32,583 nt of DNA from Aeriscardovia sp. (GTDB lineage Bacteria > Actinomycetota > Actinomycetes > Actinomycetales > Bifidobacteriaceae). Positions 26,300-32,583 of this stretch are shown here, one piece after another. Location: positions 1-32,583 of the forward strand of contig JAGBRC010000025.1 in assembly GCA_017632535.1 (NCBI GenBank), written 5' to 3'. The notes below the pieces were generated by a model. It was given only the letters and a program-made list of their open reading frames with translations, ran no database searches and had not been told where the DNA came from. The position numbers and the translations under genes were made by a program. Every line of letters starts with the position of its first letter. The stretch's first letter is position 1.

Positions 26300-26387
26300 A
26301 AAACCTCCGCGCACCTGCCAGGGTCCGCCTGCCCTTGCTGCATTTCTGCCCTGGGGGGGTTCAGCGGGATGGCACCGCGCGGAGGCC
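26300..26387 (-). ncRNA. ffs: Signal recognition particle RNA, small bacterial type
   Basis: On the minus strand this region forms one long hairpin. Terminal arms CCTCCGCGC (26377-26385 read in reverse) and GCGCGGAGG (26304-26312) pair. The apical domain IV reads CCAGGGCAGAAATGCAGCAA, matching the SRP pattern AGG-stem-GNRA-stem-AGCA, with GAAA as the tetraloop. The preceding TGAACCCC is also typical of actinobacterial SRP RNA. A seven-T run (26303-26297) ends the transcript. The RNA binds Ffh to target membrane proteins to the translocon. Confidence 0.92.
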
Positions 26388-26392
26388 CTCTC

Positions 26393-26421
26393 AGTATAGC
26401 AGACATGCCCATGTCTTACAA
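26393..26421 (-). promoter_or_regulatory. Promoter of the SRP RNA gene with palindromic spacer
   Basis: On the minus strand, TTGTAA (26421-26416) and TATACT (26398-26393) are separated by exactly 17 bases, and transcription would start near 26387. The spacer is almost entirely the palindrome AGACATG-CC-CATGTCT (26401-26416). The -35 box read on the other strand is part of TACAAT (26417-26422), a candidate -10 for glf. Confidence 0.7.
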
Positions 26422-26446
26422 TTTTGGTGTAAAGAAAGGGGAAAAA

Positions 26447-27595
26447 GTGAAAAAATACGACCTGCTCATAGTGGGAGCCGGGCTCTTTGGGCTGACTATT
26501 GCCCAGAGGGCGGCAGAAGAGGGGTTCAGCCCCCTGGTTATAGACAAGCGCCCCCATATCGGAGGCAACGCATACTCATACTTTGACAAAGACACGGGGA
26601 TTGAAATCCACAAGTACGGGGCGCACCTTTTCCACACCAAAAATGAAAAGGTATGGGAATATGTGAACCGCTTCTCTTCTTTCACAAATTACCGCCACCA
26701 CGTCTTCACCCTCCACGAGGGCAGGATTTACCCTATGCCGATAAATCTGGGAACGATAAACCAGTATTACTCGGCCGCCATGAGCCCCAAGGAGGCGGAA
26801 GACCTCGTAGAATCTAAAACTGAGGGCGCAGCAAAGGACGCGAAGAACCTTGAAGAGAGGGCGGTGGCCCTAATAGGTCGAGACCTTTACGAAGCCTTCA
26901 TCAGGGACTACACCTACAAACAGTGGCAGACCGACCCAAGGCAACTTCCGGCCTCTATCTTCACCCGCCTCCCCATCCGCTTCAATTACGACAGCACCTA
27001 TTTTTCGGACCCTTACCAGGGTCAGCCCAAAGAGGGATACTGCGCGCTATTTGGAGCGATGATAGAGGATCCCAAGATCGAAGTTCGCTTGGAGTGCGAC
27101 TACTTTGAAGACAAATCCCTTCCCAAAGGACTTCCCACCGTCTACACAGGTCCTTTGGACAGGTACTTTGGCTACCGCTTCGGAATCCTGGGGTGGAGGA
27201 CTATAGACTTCAAAGAAAAGCGGTACGATCTTAAAAGCTTCCAGGGGTGCTCGGTTTTAAATAAGTCCGATCTTTCCGACCCTTCCACAAGATCTATAGA
27301 GTTTAAGGCCTTCAACCCCGAAAGGAAGGAAGTATTCGAGAGCCAGAAGACCGTAGTCTGGGACGAGTACTCTAGGTTTGCCGGGCAGGGAGACGAGCCT
27401 TACTACCCCATAGGTACTGAGGAAGACAAAGAGATTTTGGCCAAATACCTGGATGCCGAAAAGGGAGAAAAGAACGTAATCTTCGGAGGAAGGCTTGGGG
27501 AATACGCCTACTATAACATGGACCAGACCATAGCCTCGGCCCTGGAAACCTTCAAAAAGAAGGTGCTCCCGATGCTTAAAGACGGGAGAAAATAG
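26447..27595 (+). CDS. glf: UDP-galactopyranose mutase
   Basis: This 382-residue flavoenzyme interconverts UDP-galactopyranose and UDP-galactofuranose, the donor for galactan. The N-terminus KKYDLLIVGAGLFGLTIAQ is the FAD-binding Rossmann motif. HIGGNAYSYFDKDTGIEIHKYGAHLFHTKNEKVW is split over residues about 39-72, and YTGPLDRYFGYRFGILGWRT and LGEYAYYNMDQTI are family signatures, including the arginines and tyrosines of the substrate site. The start is taken as GTG 26447, behind AAAGGGG, giving the normal family N-terminus; an ATG at 26411 would add 12 unusual residues. The 3' end overlaps the convergent glycosyltransferase gene by 20 bases. The neighbouring wzm, wzt and glfT genes show that it feeds galactofuran synthesis. 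Confidence 0.96.
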   Translation: MKKYDLLIVGAGLFGLTIAQRAAEEGFSPLVIDKRPHIGGNAYSYFDKDTGIEIHKYGAHLFHTKNEKVWEYVNRFSSFTNYRHHVFTLHEGRIYPMPINLGTINQYYSAAMSPKEAEDLVESKTEGAAKDAKNLEERAVALIGRDLYEAFIRDYTYKQWQTDPRQLPASIFTRLPIRFNYDSTYFSDPYQGQPKEGYCALFGAMIEDPKIEVRLECDYFEDKSLPKGLPTVYTGPLDRYFGYRFGILGWRTIDFKEKRYDLKSFQGCSVLNKSDLSDPSTRSIEFKAFNPERKEVFESQKTVVWDEYSRFAGQGDEPYYPIGTEEDKEILAKYLDAEKGEKNVIFGGRLGEYAYYNMDQTIASALETFKKKVLPMLKDGRK

Positions 27596-29477
27596 CGTCC
27601 CAGCTCTTTAAAGAGCCAAGATCCGCCTCCCTGTAAGCCCGGGAGAGCGGCCTCCAATTTTTCACAAGCTCCCCTGTCAGGCGGATATTTTCAAAGTAGA
27701 GTTTCCTAAAGAGGGGAGCATTTTTCTTTAAAAACCTTGCCTTCCCTTTTCCGTCATACACTTCTGCCGCGGATTGTCCTGCGAGGGAGAGCCAGGAATC
27801 TGTAGAACTTATTTCCTGGATGCCGCCGGATTCTATCGGGAGGGCAGCATTCAAGAGTCCTAGGGCCGCCCTTTTGGCCCTTTGCCACCTTGGAACTCCG
27901 GCGGGGTCTTGGACCTGGTAGGAGGGAAGGGGGAGCTGAGAAGGAGAAAGCAGCGGGGGATCGATAGAATGCCTGAGATCTTCGGCTTCCTTCCTCTTTG
28001 AACCCTGGCTGCACAAGATTGTTTCGGGACCCGAGATCAGATCTTTAATGGCCAGATTTCTCAATGCCATAGATGCATATTCCATGCGGATTCCGAGGTT
28101 GCTCTGATCGCGCAGCGAAGCTTCAAAGACGCCAGAGGGAGAATCTTTGTAGAGGAGGGCCGTAAGGAAGCGGTTGCGCTCGGCAAAGTACTCCACCCAA
28201 CCCCGCGTCTGATCCTTGAGGTGCCAGGCGGGATGCCAAACAGCGGTCCCCGGAAGTGAAATCGAGGGAATACCCGCATTTTTCGCTCTGAGGCCGTATT
28301 CGATGTCGTCAAACTTTATGAAGATGGGAAGCGGCAGACCTATCTTCTCCACGGCTGTGCGGGGAATAGAACAGAGCCACCAGCCGTTGTAATCTTCCCC
28401 GCAGCGCCTGTGGAGGCGCGGGCTTTCTCTGAGAGGGAGGGCGGAAAAGTCGTGGTTGTAGCCAAGATCCAAAGCGGGAGCATACCAGATTTTTTCCCAG
28501 TTTATGACTTCTCCGAAGGTGAAAAGGGAAGAGGGGGAATCTGAGTGCAACATCCCTGCCCCGACTATGACGGGAGAGGAGCAATGCTTTTGAAACTCAT
28601 CAATCCTCTCCAGCGTCTCCCCCTCCGGGAACGCATCGTCATCCATAAGGACGAAGTACTCGTCTTCCCCCTTCATGGCCTCCCGCATGCCCCGGGCAAA
28701 GCCCCCGGCTCCCCCCAGGTTTTTCTGCCTTATGTACTTCAAGCCCGGAAGCGCCCGGGCAGCGGAGGCAAAAGCCGGATCTTTCATGGCTGCAGAAGAA
28801 CCCTGGTCGATGCAGAAAACCTTTTGGACGCTTCCGGCCCTTCCCGCCGCTCCAATCGCCCTGGCAGCCGAGCGGGGGGAATTGAACGTAGCTATGCATG
28901 CGTCCTGCCGGGCCTTTGCAAAGGAGGCCGGAACCTGCCAGGAAGCTCCGTCAAGAATCGAAGCTTCCTCGGCGTGGATGTCCAGCCAGAGGTATCCCCC
29001 TTCCGCCATGCCTCCGATACCAAAAGCCGGAGAAAAGGAGGCATCTCCCTCAAAGGGCTCTCTCCAGAGTCTGGAATCCCTCCCGGCTGCGTCGCTTTTC
29101 CAGACCTCCGACACGCCTTTTCCCGATACGGAAAAAGACAGTTGGACGTACTTTACATCCGTAAATCTTGCCCAGTACCCTGCCGGGAAGGCATTGAAAA
29201 ACGTGCACAGGCTCACGGCATGTGCGGGATTGATTCCTAGCATGCGCCTTCCGCCAACCCAAAAGCCATTGAAAGTAGGCAGGGGAATATGTTGGAAGGC
29301 TCTCCTGGCTCCTGGAGTTGACAGACGGAGGGGGCGCGCTGCCAGAGAAGGGTCAAAGAGCTCCTTTTTCTGTACAGGATGTGTCCAGTCAAGGGCATAG
29401 AGAGGGAGGATGGAGAGATCCGCTCCTCGATCGGATGCAGGAAAAACTATCCTAGCCGCCTCTTCCCACTGCCTCAT
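27576..29477 (-). CDS. glfT: GlfT2-like galactofuranosyltransferase
   Basis: The 633-residue product matches mycobacterial GlfT2 (637 residues), which adds alternating beta-1,5 and beta-1,6 galactofuranose units from UDP-Galf on a lipid-linked acceptor at the inner membrane face. An N-terminal beta-sandwich (FNGFWVGGRR...SFSVSGKG) precedes the GT-A domain. The GT-A domain shows YIRQKNLGGAGGFARG, the metal-binding LMDDDAFPE, NGWWLCSIPR, the catalytic-region FIKFDDIEYGLRAKNAG and WHPAWHLKD. The C-terminal 200 residues are helical. The start is ATG 29477, behind AGGAGAAGAA, and overlaps the wzt stop as ATGA, so the two are coupled. No GlfT1-type initiating transferase is in the window, so it may lie further right or elsewhere. 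Confidence 0.94.
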   Translation of the reverse strand: MRQWEEAARIVFPASDRGADLSILPLYALDWTHPVQKKELFDPSLAARPLRLSTPGARRAFQHIPLPTFNGFWVGGRRMLGINPAHAVSLCTFFNAFPAGYWARFTDVKYVQLSFSVSGKGVSEVWKSDAAGRDSRLWREPFEGDASFSPAFGIGGMAEGGYLWLDIHAEEASILDGASWQVPASFAKARQDACIATFNSPRSAARAIGAAGRAGSVQKVFCIDQGSSAAMKDPAFASAARALPGLKYIRQKNLGGAGGFARGMREAMKGEDEYFVLMDDDAFPEGETLERIDEFQKHCSSPVIVGAGMLHSDSPSSLFTFGEVINWEKIWYAPALDLGYNHDFSALPLRESPRLHRRCGEDYNGWWLCSIPRTAVEKIGLPLPIFIKFDDIEYGLRAKNAGIPSISLPGTAVWHPAWHLKDQTRGWVEYFAERNRFLTALLYKDSPSGVFEASLRDQSNLGIRMEYASMALRNLAIKDLISGPETILCSQGSKRKEAEDLRHSIDPPLLSPSQLPLPSYQVQDPAGVPRWQRAKRAALGLLNAALPIESGGIQEISSTDSWLSLAGQSAAEVYDGKGKARFLKKNAPLFRKLYFENIRLTGELVKNWRPLSRAYREADLGSLKSWDAIFSRL

Positions 29478-31177
29478 TTCTTCTCCTTCTCGGCTTCAGC
29501 TTTAGCCACTATCTCATCGTTTACTCGGTTCAGCTCGTCTATGAGCCTCACTTCCTCTGTGGAACCCGTCATTTCGCTCATCTCTTCTTCCGTGAGTTTG
29601 ACATCGTCCAAGGTGATCTGCGCCACCTTTCCGCTGAGATCCACCCCCGCCAGGCGCCTAAGGACCCCCGGTGCTATCGGCACCACCCTTTCCACGCCTT
29701 CAGCCTTCTGGCGCCTGAGCTTTTCCAGTTTTGTCTCATTTACGATCCGCTGACGTATAGTTTCTATTTCTTCAATTCTTTCCAGTAGTTCAGCCCTTCG
29801 GCGCTCCAGCGGATCTCTTGTGCGTTCCTCTCTCCGCCTGGCCTCGGCCGTGACCTGAGGCATGCCGGGGCGCCACCCGTTCCACTGCAGGGTCTCCACG
29901 TCATCCGACTTGGCGGTTATTACAGTGGCCCTATCGGAAAGAAGGGCGTAATCGGCGTTCCTGGGATCTCGCACGATAAACGAGCAGGCATTATCCCCGG
30001 TGGCCACGCCCACCATTTCGGTAAAGCCGTCGTCTTTGACGGAGGGAATCCTGAGAGAGGTATAAATTGTAAATTCTCCATTGTTGAAGAGGTTCACGGG
30101 AAAACTGAAATACACCGTATTCCTACCGTGCCGAGTCATTCTAAAAGTCTTGGCTCCGCTATCATAAGTTATTCCTCCGCGCCTCACATCGTTTATGGCT
30201 ATGGCGAGGTAGAAGTCAGAGTCCTCGTTGAACTCATACTCCACCCCGAAAACAAACTTTTCGTCGCTTCCTATCAGGGGCTTTGAAACAGCAAAAGTGC
30301 GCAGGACGGGGCACCTCTCGCTCAGGCCTTCCGGCCATACTTTCCCGTTCTCTCTTTTGGCATTGCGGGCGGCAGCCATTTGTCTGTCGGCTTCGAGGTT
30401 CAGGAGGGTATACTCTTCGGCCACGGCATTCTTATCTCCAATAGAGGCGATCTTCCCCTCTTTTATCAACATCGCCCTCGAGCAGTAGCGCTTCACGGCA
30501 TTCATGTCGTGAGTGACCAGGATTACAGTCTTTTCAGGATCTTTTTTTATCTGTGTAAAGTAGTCGTCGCACTTTCTCTGAAAAGACTCGTCCCCCACGG
30601 CCAAAACTTCGTCCAGGACCAAAACGTCAGCCTGGGCCTTCACTGCAACTGAGAAAGCGAGGCGCACCTGCATTCCGGAGGAGTAGTTTTTGAGCTTTTG
30701 ATCCATAAAGTCTTCAAGCTCGGCAAAAGAGACTATGCTGTCGTACATGGCATTCATTTCAGCTTTGGAAAATCCCAGCATGGCTCCGTTAAGGTAGACG
30801 TTTTCCCTGCCTGTCAGCTCCGGATTGAATCCGACGCCCAGCTCGATAAAGGGCACTAGCCTTCCCTTCACCGACACCGATCCCTTATTGGGATAATAAA
30901 TCTGAGAGATGATCTTAAGAAGCGTAGACTTCCCGCCGCCATTTCTCCCAACTATCCCGAAAAACTCCCCTTTATGTACTGAAAAGGTGATGCCTTTGAG
31001 GACGTGCTGCGTCTTGTAGCCACGCACGCCTTTGGTCCAGTTGATTACGGCCTGTTTGAGCCCTGTGGCCTGCTCGGTAGGGAGCTTGAAGTCCTTGTAG
31101 ACATCCTTACAAGTGAGCACGGTGGGGGCATCCATGAATGGGAAGGACTCCTTGGCCCCTTCGGCCTTTTCTTCCAT
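29474..31177 (-). CDS. wzt: ABC transporter ATPase for polysaccharide export, with long C-terminal extension
   Basis: This 567-residue ATPase drives export of a lipid-linked glycan together with Wzm. The nucleotide-binding domain (to about residue 235) has Walker A GRNGGGKST, signature YSSGMQVRLAFSVA, Walker B VLVLDEVLAVGDESF and H-loop VILVTHDM. It is followed by a beta-rich domain at about 260-420 (VLRTFAVSKPLIGSDEKF, NNGEFTIYTSLRI) that resembles the carbohydrate-binding Wzt_C module. A further charged, coiled-coil-like region (RRREERTRDPLERRRAELL and the final 100 residues) comes last. The mycobacterial galactan exporter ATPase is only about 270 residues, so this extension is notable. The start is ATG 31177, seven bases after GGAGG and sharing one base with the wzm stop; a GTG just upstream is too close. 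Confidence 0.93.
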   Translation of the reverse strand: MEEKAEGAKESFPFMDAPTVLTCKDVYKDFKLPTEQATGLKQAVINWTKGVRGYKTQHVLKGITFSVHKGEFFGIVGRNGGGKSTLLKIISQIYYPNKGSVSVKGRLVPFIELGVGFNPELTGRENVYLNGAMLGFSKAEMNAMYDSIVSFAELEDFMDQKLKNYSSGMQVRLAFSVAVKAQADVLVLDEVLAVGDESFQRKCDDYFTQIKKDPEKTVILVTHDMNAVKRYCSRAMLIKEGKIASIGDKNAVAEEYTLLNLEADRQMAAARNAKRENGKVWPEGLSERCPVLRTFAVSKPLIGSDEKFVFGVEYEFNEDSDFYLAIAINDVRRGGITYDSGAKTFRMTRHGRNTVYFSFPVNLFNNGEFTIYTSLRIPSVKDDGFTEMVGVATGDNACSFIVRDPRNADYALLSDRATVITAKSDDVETLQWNGWRPGMPQVTAEARRREERTRDPLERRRAELLERIEEIETIRQRIVNETKLEKLRRQKAEGVERVVPIAPGVLRRLAGVDLSGKVAQITLDDVKLTEEEMSEMTGSTEEVRLIDELNRVNDEIVAKAEAEKEKK

Positions 31178-32049
31178 CACATTACCTCCGCAAACCTCTT
31201 GCTGTTCTTGCTAAATACGAAGATTCCCAGGAAGAACAAAATCAGCATAAGGAGTATGGGGACGGCTTTAACGTACCAGAGGCTATTTGGGAAGAGGTTC
31301 CAAATCGTCTGCTGGGTGGCAGGAGCGATGAGGTTATGCCGAATGTCTTGGATGAACTGGGCAAAGGGGTTCAAGAGCTCCAGTTTTCCCAGCTTCCCTA
31401 CGATTCCACGGCGCCGCAGGACATAGCTTAATGGATACACTATAGGCATCCCATACATTATCACCTGCTGAAGCACGTCCCAAATATGGGCAATATCCCT
31501 GTAATAGGCGTACATCGTCGCCATAATAAGAGTAAGGCCCAAAGTGACGCAATAGAGCTCGATGATGTTTAGGGGGACCAGCACCACCCTCCAGGTGAAG
31601 TCTACCCTATAGGCGAAGGCGAAGATCAAGACGACCCCGAGGTTGATGCCGTAGGTTATCAGAGCTCCCATAGTGGCCGCCACCACGACTATGTAGTTGG
31701 GAAAATGCACTTTTCTGAGCATATCGCCGCGGTCGACGATGGATCTGAGGCCCACATTGGTAGAGTCAGTCACAAATTGCCAAGAGCTTATTCCCAAAAG
31801 CAGCACAACAGGATACGTTCGGGTTCCGTCCGACATCCTTAAAAACTTTGCAAATACCACATACATGACGGCAAACATCATGAGGGGCTCAAGTACCGAC
31901 CAGATGACTCCCAAGAAAGATCCCTGATAGCGGAGCTTGAAGTCCGTATGGACTAAAGCCTTGAGGATTATCCAGTTGCGCCGAATTTTGCTAGTAGAAG
32001 GCTTAATCGCCTTTGCTGCTGCATGCGCTCGTTTCACAGAGCTTATCAT
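31177..32049 (-). CDS. wzm: ABC transporter permease for polysaccharide export
   Basis: This 290-residue ABC-2 type permease has six membrane segments. It forms the channel through which lipid-linked galactan or a similar glycan is moved across the membrane. Family blocks are ALVHTDFKLRYQGSFLGVIWSVLEPLMMFAVMYVV (residues about 25-60), GISSWQFVTDSTNVG, PNYIVVVAA, and the C-terminal MYGMPIVYPLSYV and NPFAQFIQDIR. ATG 32049 is the only early ATG in frame; TTG 32076 lies inside a terminator hairpin. There is no Shine-Dalgarno site before ATG 32049. A TATGAT at 32050-32045 would place a transcription start near 32038, suggesting a leaderless GTG at 32037 as an alternative start. It overlaps wzt by one base. 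Confidence 0.93.
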   Translation of the reverse strand: MISSVKRAHAAAKAIKPSTSKIRRNWIILKALVHTDFKLRYQGSFLGVIWSVLEPLMMFAVMYVVFAKFLRMSDGTRTYPVVLLLGISSWQFVTDSTNVGLRSIVDRGDMLRKVHFPNYIVVVAATMGALITYGINLGVVLIFAFAYRVDFTWRVVLVPLNIIELYCVTLGLTLIMATMYAYYRDIAHIWDVLQQVIMYGMPIVYPLSYVLRRRGIVGKLGKLELLNPFAQFIQDIRHNLIAPATQQTIWNLFPNSLWYVKAVPILLMLILFFLGIFVFSKNSKRFAEVM

Positions 32050-32052
32050 AAC

Positions 32053-32092
32053 AAAAAATAAAAGCGGATCTCCCAATAGTGGGCATCCGCCA
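32053..32092 (-). terminator. Rho-independent terminator upstream of wzm
   Basis: On the minus strand GCGGATGCCC and GGGAGATCCGC pair around a short loop, followed by TTTTATTTTTTG. It would end transcripts of the right-edge gene (stop at 32116). It lies only a few bases before the wzm start codon. Confidence 0.85.
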
Positions 32093-32115: not shown

Positions 32116-32583
32116 TCAGTCCCTGAGAGCCTTGAGAGAAAGGGTTATTCCGTCTTCAGGGCCAACCTTAGGTTCCCATCCGAGCTGTTCGAGCTTGCCC
32201 GAGTTGAGGCGCGTCAGGCGAGGAAGCTTGTGGGCCTCTCCTTCGCCCTTGGTGCAGCACTCTTCCTCTTTTCTGCAGCATTCTCCGCTTCCGCCTCCGC
32301 AGCAGGTTCCGTCATCGCACTTGGGAGCGGATCCTCCGCAGCAGGTTCCATCCGAGCAGGCCTTGTCGTTCTGGCCGCACGTGCACGGATCTCCGCCGCA
32401 TCCGCAGGCGCATTTACCGTCTACCTTGGTGCTTCCGCAGCATTCTCCGCTTCCGCCTCCGCAGCAGGTTCCATCATCGCACTTTGGAGCGGATCCTCCG
32501 CAGCAGGTTCCATCCGAGCACTTAGGCCTGCAGCACCCCTCCTTAATTTCCACTCCAGCCTCCTTGGCTACACCTTTCAACAC
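32116..32583 (-). CDS. Nucleotide-sugar epimerase/dehydratase-like C-terminus with cysteine-rich insertion (5' end beyond window)
   Basis: The frame is open at the right edge, so the true start lies outside the window; the first visible codon is an internal Val (GTG). The last 35 residues, LTRLNSGKLEQLGWEPKVGPED and on, match the end of extended short-chain dehydrogenases such as NAD-dependent nucleotide-sugar epimerases and dTDP-glucose dehydratase (RLDxSKLxxLGWxPKxxLEEG). Directly before it lies a stretch of about 90 residues with 25 Cys, with repeats CSDGTCCGGSAPK, CDDGTCCGGGSGECC and CACGCGGDPCTCG. Such spacing is typical of metal-binding, metallothionein-like sequence. Two 84-bp repeats encode most of it. 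The gene is followed by a terminator before wzm. The enzyme class is inferred from the C-terminus only. Confidence 0.72.
   Translation of the reverse strand: MLKGVAKEAGVEIKEGCCRPKCSDGTCCGGSAPKCDDGTCCGGGSGECCGSTKVDGKCACGCGGDPCTCGQNDKACSDGTCCGGSAPKCDDGTCCGGGSGECCRKEEECCTKGEGEAHKLPRLTRLNSGKLEQLGWEPKVGPEDGITLSLKALRD
32275..32358. repeat. 84-bp repeat, copy 1 (cysteine-rich coding)
   Basis: It matches 32437-32520 with two differences in 84 bases by eye (for example G/T in the middle). It encodes, on the minus strand, CSDGTCCGGSAPK plus CDDGTCCGGGSGECC. The copies are 162 bases apart, a multiple of three. Confidence 0.9.
32437..32520. repeat. 84-bp repeat, copy 2 (cysteine-rich coding)
   Basis: This is the second copy of the repeat at 32275-32358, in the same orientation and frame. 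The near identity suggests a recent in-frame duplication or gene conversion. The intervening 78 bases encode GSTKVDGKCACGCGGDPCTC and following residues. Confidence 0.9.

Follow-up and report, generated by a model that had tools for sequence, protein, structure and literature searches.

Here we report that an extended SDR (NAD-dependent epimerase/dehydratase) encoded in a predicted galactofuran operon of Aeriscardovia carries a Cys-rich repeat block in the loop before its C-terminal helix, and that every one of the six genomes of the genus with an assembled operon contains this block. Our preferred reading, held with moderate confidence, is that the block represents a metallothionein-like, metal-thiolate expansion of a loop on a working nucleotide-sugar enzyme, where predicted metal binding would make it a metal or redox buffer and perhaps allow it to gate activity.

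The window, by which we mean the whole stretch of DNA analysed (32,583 nucleotides, about 57% GC), is one contig (C12) of a 620-kb assembly in 34 contigs (G000), and covers the portion of the operon from the SDR gene through glf (Table 1). The minus-strand ORF that holds the block comprises 155 codons and stays open up to the contig end; its GTG “start” is the contig edge only, as the orthologues continue straight across. The 5' half of the gene was sought throughout the same assembly and not found, so that the window alone cannot reveal the Rossmann domain. The contig breaks 42 nt upstream of the insert, at window position 32583, and near-identical repeats may have caused this break. The genus is a strongly reduced gut lineage within the Bifidobacteriaceae; genomes G000–G006 measure 0.6–0.9 Mb at an estimated completeness of up to 99–100%, compared with 1.1–3.0 Mb for most other genomes of the family.

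Table 1. Features of the window discussed in the text, with the basis of each assignment
Feature	Position	Strand	Basis or remark
UDP-galactopyranose mutase (Glf)-like gene	26369..27595	+	sequence
GlfT2-like galactofuranosyltransferase	27576..29477	-	PF17994 and PF19320 in orthologue
wzt-like ABC exporter ATPase	29474..31180	-	PF00005 in orthologue
wzm-like ABC exporter permease (galactan export); immediately follows SDR gene	31177..32076	-	orthologues 76-95% identical, same order
SDR gene, 3' part (extended SDR, NAD-dependent epimerase/dehydratase)	32116..32583	-	truncated by contig end; intact orthologues L003-L007, L011
SDR gene stop codon	32116-32118	-	
SDR C-terminal tail, 36 aa, opening with conserved Arg region (LPRLTRLNxxKLxxLGWxPK)	32119..32226	-	alignment
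Cys-rich insert of 105 aa with 25 Cys; lacks F, Y and W	32227..32541	-	sequence
Repeat copy A', 88 nt	32271..32358	-	97% identical DNA to copy A
Linker with CxCGCxxDPCxC motif (KVDGKCACGCGGDPCTCGQ)	32359..32432	-	common to G004 and G006
Repeat copy A (CSDGTCCGGSAPKCDDGTCCGGGSGECC), 88 nt	32433..32520	-	97% identical DNA to copy A'
SDR core, last 14 residues before insert (VLKGVAKEAGVEIK)	32542..32583	-	aligns with ATVLKGVAKEAGVEIKEG of L011

The initial annotation had described a 25-Cys block of CxDGTCC and GECC repeats ahead of an epimerase/dehydratase ending, and both parts of this description stand: 25 Cys occur within 94 residues (32254-32535) together with both repeat types, and the ORF closes on the tail RLTRLNxxKLxxLGWxPKxGxEDG. 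Cys makes up 1.3% of the residues over the 22 predicted genes of the window, against which such a density has a probability of about 1e-25 by binomial estimate. The next best stop-free stretch of 94 residues, in all six frames of the whole window, contains nine.

Intact copies of the gene are found in five congeneric genomes (418 aa in G004, 442 in G006, 409 in G005, 384 in G003 and 381 in G002), one of which, L011, is carried by a public metagenome-assembled genome of Aeriscardovia sp. from yak reticulum. The Rossmann/SDR domain aligns in all five, and all five bear the Cys-rich insert in frame at one common site. PF01370 matches L011, the one orthologue scanned, with an E-value of 8e-32 and a score of 111 bits (cut-off 20.9). 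Its Gly-rich NAD motif (GATGMVG at residue 31, for GxxGxxG) is intact, as are S153, Y183 and K187 (Ser and YxxxK); K187 and S153 reach at least 90% conservation across the 41 rows of the alignment made for AlphaFold, which includes SDR homologues from viral contigs. The window gene encodes an extended SDR, which, to judge by these motifs, is probably catalytically competent on a nucleotide sugar and would act in the making of a galactofuran-type polysaccharide. Among proteins of solved structure, UDP-glucuronate decarboxylases give the best sequence matches (human UXS1 in the PDB, E 1e-15). None of the 25 best NCBIfam models reaches its cut-off, and the RmlB model TIGR01181, at 59.6 bits against an equivalog cut-off of 365.1, leaves the protein outside that family. 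The Rossmann core, GxxGxxG, S...YxxxK and the C-terminal LGWxP tail are shared with other extended SDRs (PF01370; UXS, RmlB, GalE), whereas the Aeriscardovia protein differs from them in its Cys-rich insert of 44-105 aa in the C-terminal loop and in a new CxxC...C before the catalytic Tyr.

Two circumstances, the contig end just past the insert and the absence of the N-terminal half from G000, could point to an assembly or frame artefact, but its probability is negligible, given that five other genomes contain the same in-frame, stop-free fusion with the same neighbours inside contigs of 15 to 174 kb. The absence of an SDR domain, or a misassembly or frame error, had been named beforehand as grounds for abandoning the fusion. 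The domain is present in five of five intact orthologues (PF01370, alignment, AlphaFold and Foldseek), and an erroneous join is ruled out by these same orthologues, which lie on five independent contigs with conserved flanks and a single insertion site; the genomes of the genus are metagenome assemblies as far as the records show, and the repeat number derived from short reads could still be misjudged.

In the AlphaFold model the core has pLDDT values mostly over 90 (191 residues) and the insert, residues 305-389, values under 50, as would be expected of a metal-folded block modelled in its apo form and equally of plain disorder. Foldseek relates the model to epimerases and dehydratases with a probability of 1.00, the matches being UDP-Glc/GlcA epimerases, UXS and RmlB, most of them at a TM-score to target of 0.67-0.84. 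Structure prediction, proposed at the outset as the means of locating the insertion, places it after the last strand (300-302) and ahead of the C-terminal helix (391-396), in a loop of the substrate-binding domain. The insert lies a few residues before R385 of L011, an Arg that recurs in several family homologues within R-x-x-x-L-(D/N). Judged by GalE and UXS structures, this loop would adjoin the nucleotide part of the substrate.

The gene had been assigned a place beside a galactofuran export operon, and in fact it lies inside one that is syntenic between genomes and combines synthesis with export. Around L011 the order is membrane protein, GT2 glycosyltransferase, GlfT-like gene, SDR, wzm, wzt, GlfT2-like gene and convergent glf, and the predicted locus is, by gene content, a galactofuran synthesis and export operon. 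We take the permease gene to be Wzm and the mutase gene to be Glf from family knowledge; the wzm-like product has no Pfam match at 1e-5. The GlfT-like gene upstream of the SDR (L011:3209-5071) encodes a 620-aa protein, also with no Pfam match at 1e-5, that is about 25-33% identical to the GlfT2-like one and appears to be a divergent galactofuranosyltransferase-like protein. An epimerase-like gene is also located near the mycobacterial galactan locus. There, RfbE and RfbD (Rv3781/Rv3783) flank a sugar transferase gene (PMC7761784). Both loci combine a Wzm/Wzt-type exporter with a sugar (galactofuranosyl) transferase gene, but in Aeriscardovia the SDR sits between the GlfT-like gene and wzm and bears the Cys insert.

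In the sister genus (G016 and G200) a syntenic SDR, 38-40% identical and with the same neighbours in the same order, has no insert, and the insert is therefore a lineage-specific gain. The sister-genus SDRs group with the Cys clade in the tree with full support, and the Cys clade itself stands on a long stem of 1.06 changes per site. Across the same genus split Wzm is 76-79% identical, which indicates that the SDR changed unusually fast on that stem. The G016 SDR (L008/L019) reads DLQATAK in place of xxYxxxK and has seemingly lost the catalytic Tyr, while that of G200 keeps DSYAVAK.

A search for homologues with the same repeat, suggested by the initial annotation, recovered the in-frame insert in the five other genomes of the genus. 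The seventh genome, G001, is uninformative on the presence of the insert, as both the SDR and wzm are missing from its assembly, which is 87% complete. No insert was seen in other SDR homologues among the loci read from 189 family genomes, and a class-wide search (395 genomes) gave weak matches only, at E 0.001 or above and 26-38% identity, several of them with internal stops. When about 85,000 species genomes were scanned with a pattern, an approach that detects close relatives only, L011 was the single match. Plasmids yielded no match to the insert, and viral contigs no insert-bearing relative, although they did contain SDR homologues. Pfam and NCBIfam held nothing of note for the insert, and its sole match in the PDB was a plant lipid-transfer protein, at E 0.13 and by Cys spacing, with no metallothionein. 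Within the genus, a protein search up to E 10 found no other copies of the Cys module, and the DG[ST]CC motif was confined at the DNA level to this gene, bar a single occurrence in G003, on the opposite strand and just downstream of the SDR gene. The G003 assembly also has another N-terminal SDR fragment at a contig end (G003:C27:2-295, L036); it is about 80% identical to the G005 query and begins almost exactly as L003/L011 do, and it probably reflects strain mixture or contamination. No report of such a fusion was found in the open-access literature.

The inserts of the six genomes measure 44, 47, 72, 81, 105 and 105 aa and contain 11 to 25 Cys, at a content that stays within 22.9-25.0%. In G000 and G006, Cys repeat A is followed by the CxCGCxxDPCxC linker and then by copy A'; G004 shares the linker with these two, G005 has it in reduced form, and G002 and G003 lack it. 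Repeat copies are 97% identical at the DNA level within the gene (G000, G006) and about 77% identical between species, which shows that duplication or conversion has repeatedly renewed the repeats without a change in Cys density. This recurrence, together with the more than twofold range in length, is what one would expect if an unconstrained surface loop had grown near-neutrally by repeat slippage and unequal exchange, with functionless Cys. We nevertheless regard such an expansion as unlikely, since Cys density persists at 23-25% in six species, of which those with an intact core are separated by a core dS of 0.4 to over 1.4. Aligned insert Cys are retained at 92-93%, against 54-59% for other residues, and the preference survives when the aligner is made blind to Cys (82% against 69%). 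In G004, 5 of 20 Cys codons are TGT, while the other inserts use TGC only, so codons drift and Cys stays; new Cys have become fixed in the core as well. Core dN/dS values of 0.04-0.09, with the larger dS values near saturation, indicate strong purifying selection on the SDR core; pairwise values for the insert, drawn from few codons in an uncertain alignment, are higher, at about 0.1-0.46.

In composition the insert resembles a metallothionein. It is about 24% Cys, with three to eight CC doublets per insert and CxC motifs in three of six; it is hydrophilic, rich in K, S, G, D and E, and lacks F, Y and W in all six genomes, His being its only aromatic residue. This composition, combined with constant Cys density at free length, is easier to reconcile with a metal-thiolate block than with a fixed fold or a redox switch of two Cys. 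Zinc binding by bacterial metallothioneins is tight and coupled to their folding (PMC10612145). The insert shares with SmtA/BmtA (PF02069) and the Cys-rich eukaryotic proteins their Cys content, CC and CxC motifs, K/S/G/D/E-rich character and want of aromatics, but differs in that it sits within an enzyme of 381-442 aa (five of five intact orthologues) and is no small free polypeptide, in that CC doublets dominate, and in that its metal binding is only predicted. Because of this difference, and because Pfam and the PDB give no sequence match to known metallothionein families, filing it as a member of such a family is not justified; it probably works like one all the same. The variation in Cys number counts against the metallothionein-like reading, as it does not agree with one cluster of fixed stoichiometry; so do the missing sequence match to metallothionein families, the faster evolution of the insert than of the core, and the surroundings of the SDR, where neither a metal-responsive regulator nor a metal gene was noticed. 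In favour of the reading, no PF02069 protein was found in seven genomes of the genus. A comparable arrangement occurs in HspA, a GroES protein of Helicobacter pylori, whose His/Cys-rich C-terminal extension sequesters nickel (PMC4671568). Both are lineage-specific, low-complexity appendages with -Cys-Cys- motifs on housekeeping proteins, one known and the other presumed to bind metal, but the HspA nickel tail is C-terminal on a chaperonin, whereas the Aeriscardovia block is an internal, Cys-only repeat in a sugar-nucleotide enzyme.

We therefore envisage, for the metallothionein-like reading, that the loop joining the last strand to the C-terminal helix, ahead of the conserved Arg, was replaced in this clade by a Cys-rich repeat block, which would fold only around metal ions, as a metal-thiolate cluster of the kind seen in metallothioneins, and would bind ions of the soft or borderline class, for example Zn(II) or Cu(I). 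The block would thereby form a metal or thiol buffer borne by a stable housekeeping enzyme. The activity of the enzyme may in addition depend on metal or redox state, given that the insert is on a loop of the substrate domain and that three new Cys flank the catalytic Tyr. These are C167, C170 and C178 of L011, in the motif CEKC(x7)CPF just before Tyr183; the CxxC...C occurs in five of five intact orthologues, no aligned family homologue has Cys at those columns, and the syntenic sister-genus SDR lacks it.

The same triad bears on two other explanations. Together with the dense CC and CxC pairs of the insert, it could form a switch in which Cys pairs become disulfides under oxidative stress, so that thiol state and not metal gates the SDR, as in thiol-based sensors. 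This seems rather unlikely, because a thiol sensor needs few, fixed Cys, while those of the insert vary in number and spacing at constant density, and because proximity of the two Cys groups cannot be demonstrated where the model gives the pre-Tyr loop low confidence. Alternatively, the triad, adjacent in sequence to the catalytic Tyr, and part of the insert, such as the linker common to G000, G004 and G006, could build at least one zinc site to keep the substrate lid in place, with zinc as a structural cofactor. The patchy occurrence of the linker among the other genomes and the superfluity of most insert Cys for one or two sites make this quite improbable. A bolder form of the metallothionein-like reading, in which a de novo metallothionein in the enzyme loop couples metal or thiol status to galactan synthesis with the core CxxC...C as the receiving site, is offered as a doubtful but conceivable extension.

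If true, the metallothionein-like reading would describe how a metallothionein-like module arose naturally, in one lineage, within a working enzyme, documented by a comparative series of six species with varied insert length and constant Cys density and by a sister-genus orthologue that is syntenic and free of the insert. It allows tests of how small-genome organisms with no recognisable PF02069 metallothionein gain metal buffering, and of whether the synthesis of a cell-surface polysaccharide may be tied to metal or redox state.
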